IMG/VR virus record: IMGVR_UViG_3300043119_000835
Span: 1-40,422 of that record
Strand: one strand, 5' to 3'
Source of the DNA: a virus
Length of the DNA: 40,422 nucleotides
The notes under the pieces were generated by a model. The model searched no databases, was not told where the DNA came from, and was given only the letters and a program-made list of their open reading frames with translations. This document shows positions 9,001-38,780 of the stretch, one piece after another; the first letter of the stretch is position 1, and each line of letters opens with the position of its first letter. A program made the translations under genes and the position numbers.

Positions 9001-9400
9001 AAAAATTATGCTGGCAAAGCTGCATATTGCCAAAAAAGACATGGCGCTGACCGATGATGTTTATCGTGCCCTGCTGTACCGCGTAACTGGCAAACATAGC
9101 GCCGCCGCCATGAGTGCCGGAGAAATCGGCCGGGTACTGTCTGATATGAAGGCCAAAGGCTGGAAACCCTCACCACCCAAAAAAGCCGGTAAAAAGCCGG
9201 TAGTCAATCCGGACTGCCAGAGGTTGCTGGCCAAAGTGGAAGCCCTGCTGGCCGAAGAACGCCGCCCGTGGGCATATGCTGAGGCCATAGCCCGTCATAT
9301 GTACGGCGTGGATAAGCTGGAATGGTGTACCCCGGAGATGCTGCGTGGCATTCTGGTTGCGCTGGTAAAAAATGCGCGCCGCAACGGGGGCATGGAATGA
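8993..9400 (+). CDS. gp16-like protein, DUF1018
   Basis: 135 residues, matching the DUF1018 (Mu gp16) family: the start KIMLAKLHIAKKDMALTDD, the YRALLYRVTGKHSAAAMS segment and the C-terminal WAYAEAIARHMYGVDKLEWC. This family stands directly before mor in many Mu-like phages, as it does here. A linker with KKAGKKP separates the two conserved parts. The biochemical role is unknown. Coupled to the next gene by an ATGA overlap. Confidence 0.85.
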   Translation: MNRKIMLAKLHIAKKDMALTDDVYRALLYRVTGKHSAAAMSAGEIGRVLSDMKAKGWKPSPPKKAGKKPVVNPDCQRLLAKVEALLAEERRPWAYAEAIARHMYGVDKLEWCTPEMLRGILVALVKNARRNGGME

Positions 9401-9849
9401 ACACGCTGCATACTGTTGCCGCCAACACACTGCCCGATGCCGCCAGAGAGCTGGCCGCCATAATCGGGATGCCGAAGACCATCAAGCTTGTCGAGGCTCT
9501 GGGTGGCACCACGTTCCCCGTACCGAAGCGGGCCACCAAAGCGGGCGAGGTTCGCTTCTGGGCTTTGTCCGATGCGGTGGGCGACGATGCAGCACAGAAA
9601 CTCTGTCAGCATTACGGCGGGGTGAAGCTGTACATCCCGCGCTGTACAGAAGCGTTGCGCAACGCCCGTGACAGGGCCATCATACAGCAGTTTGACCAAG
9701 AGACCGCCAAAGGGCGCAGTGGGGCGGAAGTTGTCATGGAACTGGCTATGCAGTACAGGCTTTCTGACAGACGCATATGGATTATTTTGAAAACGCCGGA
9801 AGACGCACCCGCTGAGAACACGGCTTTGCAGCAAGGTAGCCTTTTTTAG
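9397..9849 (+). CDS. mor: Mor-family transcription activator
   Basis: 150 residues from ATG 9397 (ATGA overlap with gp16). The C-terminal half (YIPRCTEAL, GRSGAEVVMELAMQYRLSDR and RIWIILK) is the characteristic helix-turn-helix of the Mor/C family, with the recognition helix at LSDRRIWIIL. The N-terminal half is the dimerisation region (ARELAAIIGMPKTIKLVEAL). Mor and C of Mu bind the -35 region of middle and late promoters that lack a good -35 and recruit RNA polymerase. Only one member is present here, so it probably does both jobs. The four CTGAAC-type late promoters in this window are its best candidate targets (inference). It is the last regulator before the lysis promoter at 10106. Confidence 0.9.
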   Translation: MNTLHTVAANTLPDAARELAAIIGMPKTIKLVEALGGTTFPVPKRATKAGEVRFWALSDAVGDDAAQKLCQHYGGVKLYIPRCTEALRNARDRAIIQQFDQETAKGRSGAEVVMELAMQYRLSDRRIWIILKTPEDAPAENTALQQGSLF

Positions 9850-10105: not shown

Positions 10106-10149
10106 CTGAACCCCTTCCACCTGTCCTGCCCCCTGTTCGCCGCCATACT
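10106..10149 (+). promoter_or_regulatory. Late promoter of the lysis operon (Plys-like)
   Basis: A 23-bp element at 10106-10128 (begins CTGAACCCCTTC, ends CTGTCCTG) is identical to elements at 18927-18949 and 31596-31618 on the other strand. Fifteen bp further lies a -10-like CATACT (10144-10149). No -35 hexamer exists, as in activator-dependent Mu late promoters. The next gene in the direction of transcription is the lysis cassette. The element would cover about -48 to -26, the zone bound by Mor or C in Mu. Function is inferred from repetition, spacing and position. Confidence 0.75.
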
Positions 10150-10174
10150 GGCGGCGACCGGGGGCGTTTTCTTT
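10128..10174 (+). terminator. Terminator of the early operon, straddling the late -10
   Basis: Nested stems: GCCCCC (10128-10133) with GGGGGC (10160-10165), and CGCCGCC (10138-10144) with GGCGGCG (10150-10156), followed by GTTTTCTTT. The inner loop, ATACT, is part of the late -10. RNA arriving from the early operon can form the whole structure; RNA begun at the late promoter should contain only its distal half. Confidence 0.75.
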
Positions 10175-10209
10175 GCGGCGCCTCCACATACAATATTCCG
10201 GAGGTCGCC

Positions 10210-10566
10210 ATGTCCCGTCATCAATTTACGCCGCGCCTGCCCCGCATGGGGTGGTGTCTGCTGCTGGCCGTGATTCTGCTGGCCGCTGTCGCGCTGGTTT
10301 CCCCTCAGCAGCTGCCTGTTATCCTGTATAAATTTTCTCTGGTCACCGTGGCCGGCGTGGGAGGCTACTGGCTTGACCGGTGGGCCTTTCCCTATGGGCG
10401 GCCTGACTTTTTTCTGTTCCGTACACCTGTGGGCAAAGGAGAGACCTTGCGCTCTCCGCTCAGGTTGTTGCCCAGCAGATTGACCCGCATTCCCTTTGCT
10501 GCTGCCAACATCCGTCGGGCCATTATCATGGGAGCGGCCATGCTGGCCGTGGGGATGGGCCTGTGA
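10210..10566 (+). CDS. Putative holin
   Basis: 118 residues with a GGAGG ribosome site. Hydrophobic spans lie at about 14-31 (WCLLLAVILLAAVALV), 38-55 (VILYKFSLVTVAGVGGYW) and near the C-terminus (RRAIIMGAAMLAVGMGL). The segment GGYWLDRWAFPYGRPD is typical of the putative holin family placed before the endolysin in many phages. Such proteins make inner-membrane holes that release or activate the endolysin. The stop overlaps the transglycosylase start. First gene of the lysis operon. Confidence 0.75.
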   Translation: MSRHQFTPRLPRMGWCLLLAVILLAAVALVSPQQLPVILYKFSLVTVAGVGGYWLDRWAFPYGRPDFFLFRTPVGKGETLRSPLRLLPSRLTRIPFAAANIRRAIIMGAAMLAVGMGL

Positions 10567-12170: not shown

Positions 12171-12444
12171 GAAGCCTACGGAAGCACGAACACAGGAGCT
12201 GATGCTGCTGGAGCGTATGGACGCCAAACTTGATGCACTGGATAAGCGTATGGATGGCATGGACAGGCGTGCGGCCAGTGCCGGGGCAGTGGCAGGAGGT
12301 GTTGCCGGCGGTATTACCGGCGCCCTTGTGGCTTCCAGTATCGCCTACATTAAAGCAACACTTGGATGGCATTCAAGAGGTCGTGGGTTCAATTCCCTCC
12401 AGCTCCACCAAGAATTTCTAAGGCTTACAAGTTTTGACTTGTAA
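12160..12444 (+). CDS. Small coiled-coil/glycine-rich membrane protein, 3' end replaced by tRNA-Ala sequence
   Basis: 94 residues. The N-terminal coil repeats the ERMDAKLD motif of the previous gene at both protein and DNA level, suggesting a small duplication. Next come a glycine-rich hydrophobic segment (SAGAVAGGVAGGITGALVAS, about 40-59) and IAYIKATLG. From residue 68 on, the frame runs through the 3' half of a tRNA-Ala and its terminator (codons from 12361), so about 27 C-terminal residues are not original protein sequence. The natural end was lost at, or close to, an attachment-site junction. In related phages this gene is followed by the small terminase gene, which here lies 25 kb away. 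Confidence 0.7.
   Translation: MHDEKPTEARTQELMLLERMDAKLDALDKRMDGMDRRAASAGAVAGGVAGGITGALVASSIAYIKATLGWHSRGRGFNSLQLHQEFLRLTSFDL
12361..12410 (+). other. 3' half of tRNA-Ala(GGC), likely attachment-site remnant
   Basis: These 50 nt correspond exactly to tRNA positions 27-76. The anticodon stem is CTTGG/TCAAG with loop ATGGCAT (anticodon GGC), the variable loop AGGTC, a T-arm with loop TTCAATT, the acceptor strand CAGCTCC, then ACCA. The pattern matches bacterial tRNA-Ala(GGC), for example E. coli alaW. No D-arm or 5' acceptor strand precedes it; instead there is a phage reading frame. A half starting at the anticodon stem is what tyrosine-integrase elements leave at their distal junction (attR). 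The T-stem carries one T-T mismatch. Confidence 0.85.
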
Positions 12445-12453
12445 GCCTTTTTT
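12420..12453 (+). terminator. Terminator following the tRNA-Ala half
   Basis: A perfect 12-bp stem, AAGGCTTACAAG (12420-12431) with CTTGTAAGCCTT (12438-12449), has a 6-nt loop and a T6 run. It stands 9 bp after the CCA end, as a native tRNA terminator does. It also closes the lysis operon read from the left. Confidence 0.9.
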
Positions 12454-18542: not shown

Positions 18543-18899
18543 TCAGATAACACGAACAGGGTATTGGAAAGTCTGTTGATTACCGGTTGAATCAGTGGCA
18601 CAGATAATCAACAGGCATACACCGTTATGCGGCTGCATGGCCGTCACCTGTATGGACTGCGCTCTGCCTGCCTCAACCAACGGGGCCAATGCCTGCTGGG
18701 CATATTGCTGTGCAAGGGTACGGATGCGGGGCAGGTCTTTTTCGCGCGCTATTTCGTGCAGGCGCGAACCTACCGTGGGGTCTGCCCACCATGTGCCCAG
18801 AGGCGTCATGATGCGCAGATAGATGGCGTTGCCCAGATGGCTGATGCGCTCTCCGGTGTAGTCGCCTGTATATGGATTTAACCCTGCATCGTTTCCCAT
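18543..18899 (-). CDS. Baseplate protein gp46-like
   Basis: 118 residues from ATG 18899 (MGNDAGLNPYTGDY). The segments LGNAIYLRIMTPLGTWWADP and VGSRLHEIAREKDLPR are those of the GP46/W-like wedge protein. No ribosome site precedes this ATG; instead the predicted late transcript start falls on its first base, so translation may be leaderless. A longer frame beginning at 19001 would run through the promoter and hairpin and into the divergent gene, and is rejected. First gene of the distal baseplate-fibre operon. Confidence 0.88.
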   Translation of the reverse strand: MGNDAGLNPYTGDYTGERISHLGNAIYLRIMTPLGTWWADPTVGSRLHEIAREKDLPRIRTLAQQYAQQALAPLVEAGRAQSIQVTAMQPHNGVCLLIICATDSTGNQQTFQYPVRVI

Positions 18900-18905
18900 G
18901 CCGCC

Positions 18906-18949
18906 ACTGTAGTGGCGGCTGAGATACAGGACAGGTGGAAGGGGTTCAG
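18906..18949 (-). promoter_or_regulatory. Late promoter of the gp46-fibre operon
   Basis: The 23-bp element (18927-18949, read leftward CTGAACCCCTTC...GTCCTG) is identical to that of the lysis promoter. After 15 bp comes TACAGT (18911-18906), a -10 with four of six consensus bases. It sits inside an 8-bp inverted repeat, CCGCCACT (18901-18908) with AGTGGCGG (18911-18918). Six bases after the -10 is the A of the gp46 start codon. Corresponds in position to the Mu late promoter in the tail region. Confidence 0.72.
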
Positions 18950-18960
18950 GAGGAGTACCA

Positions 18961-19629
18961 GTGACATCCAAAACAGAAATAATTGAAAATGTAGATGACA
19001 AAAAAATTTATTGTACAAGATGTGATGGATATCGTCACTGTAAAGTGCTTGGCGCTGTCGAGCATAGTTATGATAACTATGAAGAGTATGAATACAGGTG
19101 TGGGGTTGATGGATGGGACAAATACTACATCGTTGAATGTAATGGATGTGGATACATATTTTTTGCAATAGAATCTTACTTTTCTGAAAAAGAATATCAT
19201 GAAGAAAATAAAATTGATGTAGCTATTTATCCAAAAAACAAATTTAAACCTAAAAGTTGTATTGAAGAAGTACTATGGTCTGAATCATCAGGCACATTAT
19301 ACAATGAAATATACTCAGGACTAAACAATGGGCTTTATTCAATTGTAATTATGGGATTAAGGACTTTCACTGAACAGTTTATGGTTCACGTGAACAAAGA
19401 AGATAAAAAGAATTTTCAAGAAAACATCAAAAATAGTATAAAAAAAAATATTTTTACACAAGATCAGGCGAATTATCTTATTGATGTTACAAAATTTGGA
19501 AACGATGTTGTTCACAGAAAAAGTCAGCCAAATGAAAAGCAAGTCATAATTGCTCTGGATATTGTCGAGAGTGCAATTGAAATATCTCTCGTCAATAAAA
19601 CAAAGGCTAACACTTTAAAAAAATTATAA
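18961..19629 (+). CDS. DUF4145-like accessory gene (moron)
   Basis: 222 residues from GTG 18961, with AGGAGG 7 nt upstream. It runs against all surrounding genes and is strikingly AT-rich, with Lys/Asn/Ile-heavy coding, so it was acquired separately. An N-terminal CTRC-x(n)-CNGC zinc-ribbon-like part (residues about 19-64) is followed by a helical domain, NGLYSIVIMGLRTFTEQFMV, and a terminal LIDVTKFGNDVVHRKSQP, the GN(D/x)xxH pattern of DUF4145. Such domains occur alone or in restriction-type defence proteins; a lysogenic-conversion or defence role is inference. It fills the gap between gp45 and the late promoter of gp46. Its 5' end lies 11 bp from the promoter's activator element. Confidence 0.75.
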   Translation: MTSKTEIIENVDDKKIYCTRCDGYRHCKVLGAVEHSYDNYEEYEYRCGVDGWDKYYIVECNGCGYIFFAIESYFSEKEYHEENKIDVAIYPKNKFKPKSCIEEVLWSESSGTLYNEIYSGLNNGLYSIVIMGLRTFTEQFMVHVNKEDKKNFQENIKNSIKKNIFTQDQANYLIDVTKFGNDVVHRKSQPNEKQVIIALDIVESAIEISLVNKTKANTLKKL

Positions 19630-30334: not shown

Positions 30335-31567
30335 CTAGTTTCCTTTACCGCTTTTTGCGGCGTGGTATTCCTCGGGCGTAATCCCGAGCTGGTTGATGAC
30401 GTAATCTTCTTCTGCCGTCAGGGCCGCGCTGGAGTCCTGCGTACCGGCGGGCGGTACGCCGCCGGTCTGCATGGCCCCAAGGGCCGCCACAGGCACGGCG
30501 CTGCTCAGGAAGGTACGCAGTGTGTCGGGGGCATCCTTGGCCAGGCCGCGTGCCCAGCCCTCCACAGCCTTGTTCAGCCTTCCGTCGCTGAGCGCGGCGT
30601 CGATTTCCGCATTCAGCGCGTTCTCAATGCTGCTGGTTTCAAGCTCGGCAACACGGTTTTTCAATGCCGCGTTGGCCTGCTGCAATGCGGTGAGGGCCGC
30701 TACGGGTGCAAACCTGGCAGGGTCAGGGGTTGCGGCCTGCTGCGTCAGCGCCGCAATCTGGCTGTCTTTGTGCTGCAACACGTCCAGCAGGCTTACGGGG
30801 GTGCCCCCGGGCTGGTCCGACGCTGCTGCCGCATCGCTTGCCCCCAGCATGTCTTTGAGCTTGTCCAGCTGCGCCGTGATGTCGGCTGCTGTTGCCGTTA
30901 CCGGCAAGTTGAGCATCCAGCGCAGGCGTTCCAGTAGTTCATCCATGGTTGTCTCCTGTTCTGTTGTCTGTGCGGCCTGTACGTGCGCAGAGGCCGCGTG
31001 CACATTGCCCAGCGCCAGCGCCACGGCGTCTAAGCCGTCCAGCGCGGGGGTGTTGGTCAGGGCCGCGTTGATCAGCGCCAGCACGGCGCCGGTTTCGGGA
31101 TCAAAAGAAAAGTACGGGGATATGTATTTGTATTCGCCGGCATCAATGTAGCCGCGCGCCTTATCCGTCCAGCTGACGGAGGCGAACAGACCTTTGCCGG
31201 CCACATAGACAAGCCGCTGCAGCCAGCCGGAAGCGGGCGCGGGCTGCCCGTTGGCACGGGCGTTCAGAGACTGATGCTCGTAATCTATGACAATGGGTGT
31301 TTCGCGGGCCTCTGCGGCTGCGATGATGGCTTCGGCAATGGAGGCATCCATCTGCCAGTGGGTGAGCCTGCCTTCTGTAATGGTGGCAGGGCGGCCGTCA
31401 CGCGCGGCAAAGCGGCCTTCCGGAAACAACTGGATGTTGCAGCCCGCCGGCAGCTCTTTTTGCGATAGCATTTCCGGCAGATCAGAGTGCCCGGCACCGC
31501 CTTGTGACAGCGGCACCGCAAGACTGGCGGCAGGGTATGCGGTATGTCTGGTGGATAAATGCGTCAT
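30335..31567 (-). CDS. I: Protease I with C-terminal scaffold (Z-like)
   Basis: 410 residues from ATG 31567 (MTHLSTRHTA); a GTG at 31588 is in frame but lies inside the promoter hairpin. Residues about 50-150 (GRPATITEGRLTHWQMDASI, IAAAEARETPIVIDYEHQS, GQPAPASGWLQRLVYV) form the Mu-like capsid protease, with His in DYEHQ and a Ser in the following strand as likely catalytic residues. The C-terminal half is a coiled scaffold (LTALQQANAALKNRVAELET), probably also made separately from an internal start, as Mu Z. No ribosome site precedes the ATG; late RNA may start on it. Confidence 0.9.
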   Translation of the reverse strand: MTHLSTRHTAYPAASLAVPLSQGGAGHSDLPEMLSQKELPAGCNIQLFPEGRFAARDGRPATITEGRLTHWQMDASIAEAIIAAAEARETPIVIDYEHQSLNARANGQPAPASGWLQRLVYVAGKGLFASVSWTDKARGYIDAGEYKYISPYFSFDPETGAVLALINAALTNTPALDGLDAVALALGNVHAASAHVQAAQTTEQETTMDELLERLRWMLNLPVTATAADITAQLDKLKDMLGASDAAAASDQPGGTPVSLLDVLQHKDSQIAALTQQAATPDPARFAPVAALTALQQANAALKNRVAELETSSIENALNAEIDAALSDGRLNKAVEGWARGLAKDAPDTLRTFLSSAVPVAALGAMQTGGVPPAGTQDSSAALTAEEDYVINQLGITPEEYHAAKSGKGN

Positions 31568-31573
31568 GCCCCC

Positions 31574-31618
31574 GATATACGGGGGCACGGATGGTCAGGA
31601 CAGGTGGAAGGGGTTCAG
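31574..31618 (-). promoter_or_regulatory. Late promoter of the protease-head operon (PI-like)
   Basis: The 23-bp element (31618-31596 leftward) is identical to the lysis and gp46 copies. A -10, TATATC (31579-31574), or GTATAT one base earlier, follows. The -10 is the loop of TGCCCCC (31567-31573) with GGGGGCA (31581-31587). Six bases after the -10 comes the A of the gene I start codon, as at gp46. Mu has its PI late promoter at the same place. Confidence 0.75.
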
Positions 31619-37434: not shown

Positions 37435-37616
37435 GGGTTACCATTCAATGGCCATGTGAACTCAGGTGATATCTAGAAAACAACATATTCCATAAAAAAA
37501 AGTGTATTAGACAAGTCACTCTTCACTATCCCAGCCTACACTTCACTCAGCTTCTCTTGCAAAACTGGCACAAAACTGGCACAGATTTTTTAGGCATATG
37601 TGCCTGGGAGGCTGTG
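37435..37616. other. Junction and integrase upstream region
   Basis: No gene. The end next to terminase contains ATTCAATGGCCAT (37443-37455), which, read on the minus strand (ATGGCCATTGAAT), resembles the anticodon-loop sequence ATGGCATTCAA of the tRNA-Ala half. The middle is AT-rich. The end next to the integrase has two adjacent copies of AAAACTGGCAC. I read the interval as one side of a rearranged attachment site; this is inference. Confidence 0.5.
37561..37582 (+). repeat. Tandem 11-bp direct repeat AAAACTGGCAC beside integrase
   Basis: AAAACTGGCAC at 37561-37571 and 37572-37582, followed by AG. Two perfect copies at one helical turn, 34 bp before the integrase start, fit arm-type integrase binding sites or an autoregulatory operator. 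Confidence 0.6.
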
Positions 37617-38780
37617 ATGACAAAAGCAAATTGGATCAAGATTGATCGAGGTATCCGCTATAAAGAACACCCCACACGAAAACACGGGGTCAAGCCAGAC
37701 AGATATTTTGTGCTGCGTCACTCGTCAGAAGGCAAAATGCACCAAGAAGCTCTAGGCTGGGCATCTGAAGGAGTAACGCTTGAAAAAGCCAGAATAAGAC
37801 TTGCAGAACTAAAAGAGGCTAAGCGCACAGGCAAGGGCGCCACAACTCTTGCCAGCCAAAGACGGGCTCTACGTGAGGAAGAGGAACGAAATAAACAAGC
37901 GCAACAAGCGGCTAAAGCCAGATTCATAACCTCAGGTTCATTTTGGCATGAATATTACTGGCCGAGCCAGAGCCATAAAGCGCAAGGCAGCCTCGACGCC
38001 GAAAAAGCACTATGGGAAAAATGGCTCTGCCCCATCATAGGGCAAATTCCACTGGCCACAACCACGACAAAAGATCTGGAAGAAGTGAAAAGACGGATGA
38101 TGAAAGCAGGGCGTGCCCCTGCTACCATCAAATATGCCTTAGCACTGTTCTCTCAGATGTGGACTCTAGCCCAGAACTACGGGATAGCAGACGGCACATG
38201 TCCTGCAAAAAGGCTCAAGCTCCCCGCAAGAGATAACAAGAGACAGCGCTACTTGAAGCCAGCTGAAATAGACACACTCCTTTCGGCCTTACGGGATAAG
38301 TCGCAAAAGACGCACGACATAGCTCTCCTGTCACTGGAGTGCGGCCTTCGCTTTGGAGAAATCGCCAACCTGCGTTGGGAAGATGTTGACCTTGAACATG
38401 AAAGACTATTTATCCGCGATCCAAAATCACGAAGGAACAGATTCACATACATAAACCAAACGATACGCAGCATGTTATTACTAAATAGACCAGATCGAGC
38501 TGGAGATCTAATTTTTCCTGACTATGAAGGCAAACCCATGGCAAGAGTTTCCAAAACATTCGGACGTGTTGCTGATGAGCTCTTCAATTCGGATGTAACG
38601 GACACCAGAAACCGGGTATGTTTTCATACGTTACGACATACGTTTGCATCGCGACTTGTCGCCAATGGAACTCCGCTTTATAATGTCAAAGAGCTGTTAG
38701 GACATTCATCACTTGCCATGACGGAGCGGTATGCACACCTTGCTCCCGACTATTACAAAGCACTGAGCACCAAGGAATAG
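37617..38780 (+). CDS. int: Tyrosine recombinase (integrase)
   Basis: 387 residues from ATG 37617 with GGAGG 6 nt upstream (a frame start at 37557 lies inside the repeats). The N-terminal arm-binding part (residues 1-60, WIKIDRGIRYKEHPTRKHGV) is of the AP2/P4-like short type. A core-binding SAM-like domain follows (about 105-200). Catalytic residues: Arg245 (LRFGEIANLRW), His337 and Arg340 (HTLRHTF), His363 (LLGHSS) and nucleophile Tyr372 (TERYAHL). All are present, so it should be active. Mu-like phages do not need such an enzyme, so it belongs to another element or has been captured. Coding is less GC-rich than the phage genes. Confidence 0.93.
   Translation: MTKANWIKIDRGIRYKEHPTRKHGVKPDRYFVLRHSSEGKMHQEALGWASEGVTLEKARIRLAELKEAKRTGKGATTLASQRRALREEEERNKQAQQAAKARFITSGSFWHEYYWPSQSHKAQGSLDAEKALWEKWLCPIIGQIPLATTTTKDLEEVKRRMMKAGRAPATIKYALALFSQMWTLAQNYGIADGTCPAKRLKLPARDNKRQRYLKPAEIDTLLSALRDKSQKTHDIALLSLECGLRFGEIANLRWEDVDLEHERLFIRDPKSRRNRFTYINQTIRSMLLLNRPDRAGDLIFPDYEGKPMARVSKTFGRVADELFNSDVTDTRNRVCFHTLRHTFASRLVANGTPLYNVKELLGHSSLAMTERYAHLAPDYYKALSTKE

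Follow-up and report, generated by a model that had tools for sequence, protein, structure and literature searches.

Leaderless mRNAs are usually regarded as rare in Proteobacteria, and the examples in which a -10 element lies 6-7 nt before the start codon come from Actinobacteria, from Deinococcus and from the lambda cI gene when it is transcribed from PRM. A hairpin that is lost from late transcripts has been described in phage T4, where the 5' strand of an inhibitory stem is missing from the late RNAs of e (lysozyme), soc, 49 and I-TevI, the late promoter lying within that strand (PMC3014915). In phage Mu, the Mor dimer has been located at -43.5 in the promoter Pm (PMC4390567). In the beetrevirus Fc02, late transcription has been reported by strand-specific RNA-Seq to fall into three clusters, which fits separate late operons (PMC9936078). 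We found no leaderless transcripts of Mu-like phages in the open-access literature.

The window analysed here, a 40,422-nucleotide stretch of viral DNA (IMGVR_UViG_3300043119_000835), carries on its minus strand a protease I gene that encodes a Mu-like I protein (30335-31567; PF10123, Pfam E 2.8e-97) and a gp46 gene for a baseplate wedge protein (18543-18899; PF07409, Pfam E 1.4e-18), with predicted leaderless ATG codons at 31567 and 18899, respectively. Reading along the minus strand, the I gene is preceded by the 22-mer TGAACCCCTTCCACCTGTCCTG (31596-31617), a candidate activator box with a dyad GAA-N4-TTC centred at -44.5 relative to the ATG, then by 16 nt, the -10-like hexamer TATATC (31574-31579) and GGGGGC before the ATG. 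The gp46 gene has an exact copy of this 22-mer (18927-18948), followed by 15 nt, the -10-like hexamer TACAGT (18906-18911) and GGCGGC before its ATG. The first-pass annotation had stated that both -10 elements end 6 nt before the A of the ATG and that neither gene has a ribosome site; this geometry can be read directly from the sequence, and the anti-Shine-Dalgarno (anti-SD) duplex energies at the two starts are only -2.2 and -2.8 kcal/mol, respectively.

There are three exact copies of the 22-mer in the window, where none are expected. The third (10107-10128, plus strand) is an exact match at the lys (holin) promoter, and a gene for a Mor/C-family late transcription activator, the presumed box binder (9322-9849, plus strand; PF08765, E 8.7e-16; PHROG 836 'late transcriptional activator', E 4.8e-39), sits just ahead of it. 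A Mor gene was present in all 33 of the records searched. Because the 22-mer heads the lysis operon, I and gp46, and a Mor/C gene is encoded nearby, the boxes very probably serve Plys, PI and a gp46 promoter as activator sites, as judged from their sequence and placement. The exact 22-mer had no match in genome contigs and was found in viral contigs only in near-identical relatives; relatives were therefore sought by protein-based searches. A megablast of the window against phage records gave no match.

The search by I-protein alignment identified 160 loci in viral and genome contigs, of which 113 were left after the removal of near-duplicates and exclusions by hand; in this curation, which preceded the statistics, 12 I loci whose start had evidently been called wrongly were dropped and one mis-called start (L009) was corrected. 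When these 113 loci were aligned on the start codon (A = +1), with no assumption about promoters, a common register could be seen, with A-11 in 64%, T-7 in 52%, C-1 in 85% and A+1 in 98% of them; at -7 the window's own I gene carries C instead of T. The sigma70 -10 element, whose two key bases are A-11 and T-7, lies in this register about 6-7 nt ahead of the start codon, the spacing of leaderless genes. Upstream, a dyad (4+4, spacer 4) peaks at -43.5/-44.5, where 29% of the I loci have at least 3 of 4 pairs, compared with about 3% at most other positions; this is the centre expected of a Mor/C promoter, and the phage encodes an activator of that family. Since the I starts had been picked with a preference for hairpins, the starts of gp46, a gene unrelated to I, were picked from the box alone, and yet the 34 non-redundant gp46 loci share the same register (A-11 71%, T-7 68%, C-1 85%, A+1 85%). 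Three enterobacterial gp46 starts are GTG, a codon that is generally poor for leaderless initiation. The I gene of Fc02 has the same architecture as that of the window. With a 22-mer present three times in the window, and with the arrangement recurring at both genes in 113 and 34 non-redundant relatives, respectively, the organisation of the I and gp46 start regions is not due to chance. The marks of the register agree in placing the predicted transcription start at the A of the ATG or at most 1-2 nt away from it.

An SD core (AGGA, GGAG or GAGG) precedes 1.8% of I starts, compared with 59% of 1775 control ORFs from the same loci (which were scored as positive if a core precedes some candidate start), and the best anti-SD energies over candidate starts have medians of -3.4 for I and -7.3 for the controls (p 1e-36). 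In the window, most other structural genes carry an SD, unlike I and gp46; most of the neighbouring genes have anti-SD energies between -5.6 and -12 kcal/mol at their first or best start. An absent SD is, like the -10 spacing, what is seen in leaderless genes. If transcripts were instead leadered, from an upstream start that we failed to recognise, or if I and gp46 relied on translational coupling or on other start codons, an in-frame GTG at 31588, which belongs to the 5' arm of the hairpin at I (described below), could be such a start. We consider this very improbable: no candidate start of I has an SD comparable to those of the controls, M1 is aligned among divergent I proteins, the stop codon of G (31739) lies some 170 nt from the I start, and box, -10 and ATG keep a conserved register. 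The alignment of M1 extends across five I proteins from Desulfovibrio-like, Klebsiella, Pseudomonas (two) and Mu phages, which are 33-49% identical to that of the window, and the match of gp46 to its family profile, PHROG 180, starts at residue 4, which is also profile position 4. The GTG at 31588 (minus strand) lacks an SD, and a relative (L013) apparently has an in-frame ATG at the matching place; in-frame codons of this kind arise in the 5' arm because the palindrome continues into the start codon.

The same short region can fold when it is transcribed from further upstream. The I hairpin, CGUGCCCCCG-UAUAU-CGGGGGCAUG (31565-31589, minus strand), is predicted to enclose the AUG within a 10-bp stem of the read-through RNA (MFE -21.3 kcal/mol, z -3.25). 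The gp46 hairpin, GCCGCCAC-TACA-GTGGCGGC (18900-18919, minus strand), abuts the AUG and partly pairs with it, its outer pairs being predicted to reach into AUGGG (MFE -29.5 kcal/mol, z -5.2); no shuffle reached the native energy at either site. These predicted folds bear out the earlier proposal that the ATG abuts or sits within a read-through hairpin. To compare loci, hairpin rates were determined at the fixed start codon and set against shuffles, the first starts of control genes and the best score of each control over all its starts. The rate for stems that score at least 14, with the 3' arm ending 0-3 nt before the start, is 75% at I loci, compared with 6% at the first starts of controls and 5.6% in dinucleotide shuffles; taking the maximum over all starts, 23% of control ORFs score at least 14. 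About 15% of I loci are without a good hairpin by stem score, some of them with a clear box.

It is the pairing in this hairpin that is conserved and not its sequence. The 5' arm has 56 distinct sequences among the I loci and, since even the arms of I (GCCCCCG), gp46 (GCCGCCAC) and lys (CGCCGCC) of the one phage in the window differ, a common site for a sequence-specific protein is unlikely. Mismatches within the stems, scored neutrally, include 19-20 G-T/T-G and 2 A-C/C-A, compared with 82:84 at random positions in those loci; a stricter count, restricted to changes in the 5' arm and corrected for base composition, gave 16:1 (p = 0.003, although the loci are related, and p-values are thus indicative only). 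Because a G-T on one strand is an A-C on the other, this bias points to selection on the sense-strand RNA, and hence to a stem that is probably maintained as an RNA structure and that would be present in read-through RNA only.

This strand bias bears on another reading, in which leaderless mRNAs are real and the inverted repeat has no RNA function but acts as DNA, with the GC-rich dyad keeping the promoter closed when the activator is absent or extruding the -10 as a loop. In both gene sets, I and gp46, the hairpin loop does most often span -8 to -13, where the -10 lies; the step at which Mu C acts at Plys, PI and PP is isomerisation (PMC4461284); and a stem TGCTCA..TGAGCA flanks the -10 of Mu PI as well, though the ATG there is 9 nt further on. 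A role confined to DNA nevertheless seems unlikely to us, since G-T mismatches outnumber A-C on the sense strand, a distinction that would be meaningless in DNA, the pairing often runs into the AUG, and the stem at enterobacterial lys genes tracks the ATG and not the -10. The AUG is paired in register in 17 of 25 gp46 hairpins (68%) and in 18 of 85 I hairpins (21%), compared with 10% and 4.5%, respectively, in shifted registers. The predicted cost of opening the start region has a median of 14.3 kcal/mol in read-through RNA, compared with 10.1 kcal/mol in control genes that have an SD; the leaderless form needs 1.0 kcal/mol, a value calculated for the smaller stretch from +1 to +12 only and so not strictly comparable to the other two. 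All of these folding energies are predictions, and the hosts differ among loci.

The hairpin could also serve mainly as a terminator of the operon upstream of each late promoter, with its position against the ATG a by-product of compact packing. Strong hairpins around the -10 are indeed found at the lys genes of the window and of two relatives (L231 and L232), followed in the window by TTTTCTTT. At I and gp46, however, the GC stem is followed by the ATG and A/C-rich codons and by no U-tract, and packing fails to account for either the missing SD or the pairing of the AUG, making this a quite improbable explanation for these two genes. The DNA-only and terminator roles of the I and gp46 hairpins were both down-weighted on the evidence of register, pairing, mismatch bias and AUG pairing. 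The two further proposals of the first-pass annotation, that the transcript starts at the start codon and that the hairpin adds a translational switch, gain independent comparative support: for the former, the fixed register of ATG, A-11, T-7, C-1/A+1 and dyad together with the absence of an SD; for the latter, the conservation of pairing over sequence, the tolerance of G-U and not of A-C, and the pairing of the AUG.

The lys promoters vary on this theme. The third box copy of the window does not head a leaderless gene, a point absent from the first-pass annotation: a holin gene (PF13272) follows, whose ATG (10210) lies about 54 nt downstream and is preceded by an SD, GGAGG (10200-10212, plus strand, for SD and ATG), making it a leadered late gene of this phage. 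The lys -10 is enclosed by a terminator-type hairpin, CCCCC..CGCCGCC-ATACT-GGCGGCG..GGGGG-CGTTTTCTTT (10129-10175, plus strand; -48.9 kcal/mol for the fold of a 95-nt segment), the only one of the window's three sites at which a GC stem is joined to a U-tract. A long, strong stem around the lys -10 is common to the Desulfovibrio-type phages (the window, L231 and L232), and in the window it is terminator-like and is followed by an SD-bearing leader. In the enterobacterial phages (L009, L242, L245 and similar), it is the 5' arm that contains the predicted lys transcription start, and the ATG, some 25 nt further on, is directly preceded by the 3' arm. In L240, L229, L243 and JBD24 (L224), the lys gene, too, appears to be leaderless, its ATG being preceded by a hairpin. 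The Mu lys gene has a leader. As the late start is located at the 5' arm or beyond it, the full stem would be present in read-through RNA only, where, by a logic common to these arrangements, it may either terminate transcription or hide the start codon.

Taken together, we think it likely that I and gp46 are expressed from activator-driven late mRNAs with leaders of 0-2 nt, and that a hairpin silences their start codons in read-through RNA. Under this model, an activator dimer would bind the dyad box near -44, replacing a -35 element, and RNA polymerase would use the weak -10 located in the loop of the inverted repeat. The first nucleotide of the RNA would be the A of the ATG or one no more than 1-2 nt away, just past the 3' arm, so that the late mRNA would be without the hairpin and would present a free 5' AUG for leaderless initiation. 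Read-through RNA, from the lys-to-G operon, from morons or from host or prophage transcription, would carry both arms, and I and gp46 would not be translated from it because it offers no SD and its hairpin abuts or pairs the AUG. We infer this mechanism, since comparative evidence cannot prove a transcript end or its translation.

Both junctions, at I and at gp46, accept foreign genes, and a benefit of silencing the read-through from such insertions is plausible. Between gp45 and gp46 of the window, just behind the gp46 promoter, lies a DUF4145 gene on the plus strand (18961-19629; PHROG 'DNA binding protein'); a near-identical phage (L006, 9050-9185) has different DNA at this place, with homology resuming at the box. 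In JBD24 (L011, 996-1703), the interval from G to a leaderless-type I promoter holds anti-CRISPR genes and one winged-helix gene. We would give an even chance to the broader proposition that, across Mu-like phages, some 20 nt serve twice, as a -10 framed by an inverted repeat in DNA and as a stem that blocks the AUG in transcripts begun elsewhere, and that late structural genes are thus gated twice, by leaderless initiation as well as by the Mor/C activator, and shielded from read-through at junctions that receive foreign genes such as anti-CRISPRs.

The window also differs from a relative in its layout. Its head-tail module is inverted relative to a near-identical contig, IMGVR_UViG_2528311093_000006 (L004), in which window position 12369 (plus) joins 37448 (minus); the breakpoints in the window are 12369/12370 and 37448/37449, and the 12.37-37.45 kb block was inverted either by a real inversion or by assembly. 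A search of the two ends of this block turned up no long inverted repeat. At one end is a sequence resembling a tRNA 3' end with a terminator (12378-12450; GGTTCAATTCCCTCCAGCTCCACCA) and at the other a tyrosine integrase gene (37557-38780; PF00589, E 4e-29), and this placement suggests that an att site or an integrative island adjoins the Mu-like phage; no complete tRNA was found. There is no copy of the 22-mer in the window ahead of the terminase/head operon start (37434, minus strand), so that, after the inversion, the head genes have no obvious late promoter unless they are transcribed from elsewhere.

If the mechanism holds, a large phage group, to which the DMS3/D3112-type Pseudomonas phages of anti-CRISPR work belong, would express its head protease and baseplate genes from leaderless mRNAs, and late-promoter activation and start-codon occlusion would be combined in one short element. 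This would provide a testable explanation of how virion assembly can proceed undisturbed by morons inserted at the I and gp46 junctions, as well as a rule for annotating the starts and promoters of I and gp46 genes.

Set against the systems described above, these genes resemble the leaderless genes of Actinobacteria and Deinococcus and lambda cI in their fixed -10 to ATG spacing, absent SD and AUG start; they differ in being presumably activator-dependent late structural genes of phages of Proteobacteria, with a predicted start-codon hairpin in read-through RNA. With the Mu promoters Plys, PI and PP they share a homologous genome plan, a Mor/C-family activator, I at the head of a late operon, a dyad near -43.5 and a weak -10. 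Mu I, however, has an AGGA and a short predicted leader, the sequence of its box differs from that of the window, and the second structural promoter, at gp46 in the window, is at P in Mu (PMC4461284). The likeness to T4 e would be one of function: in both, a hairpin covers the start region in a long RNA initiated upstream, and the late RNA begins, or in our case would begin, past the 5' strand and so escapes the hairpin. As in T4 e, the fold over the start has its 5' strand upstream of the late transcription start, here with a predicted structure and a start position deduced from the register. T4 hides both SD and AUG, in a leadered mRNA made from a gp55-sigma promoter, whereas I and gp46 of the window have no SD to sequester, an AUG that is abutted or paired and a predicted leaderless mRNA. 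We therefore regard the two genes as probably working like T4 e and do not file them as members of its type; here the -10 is usually the hairpin loop itself, and the arrangement is found at two or three operon heads of a single phage.
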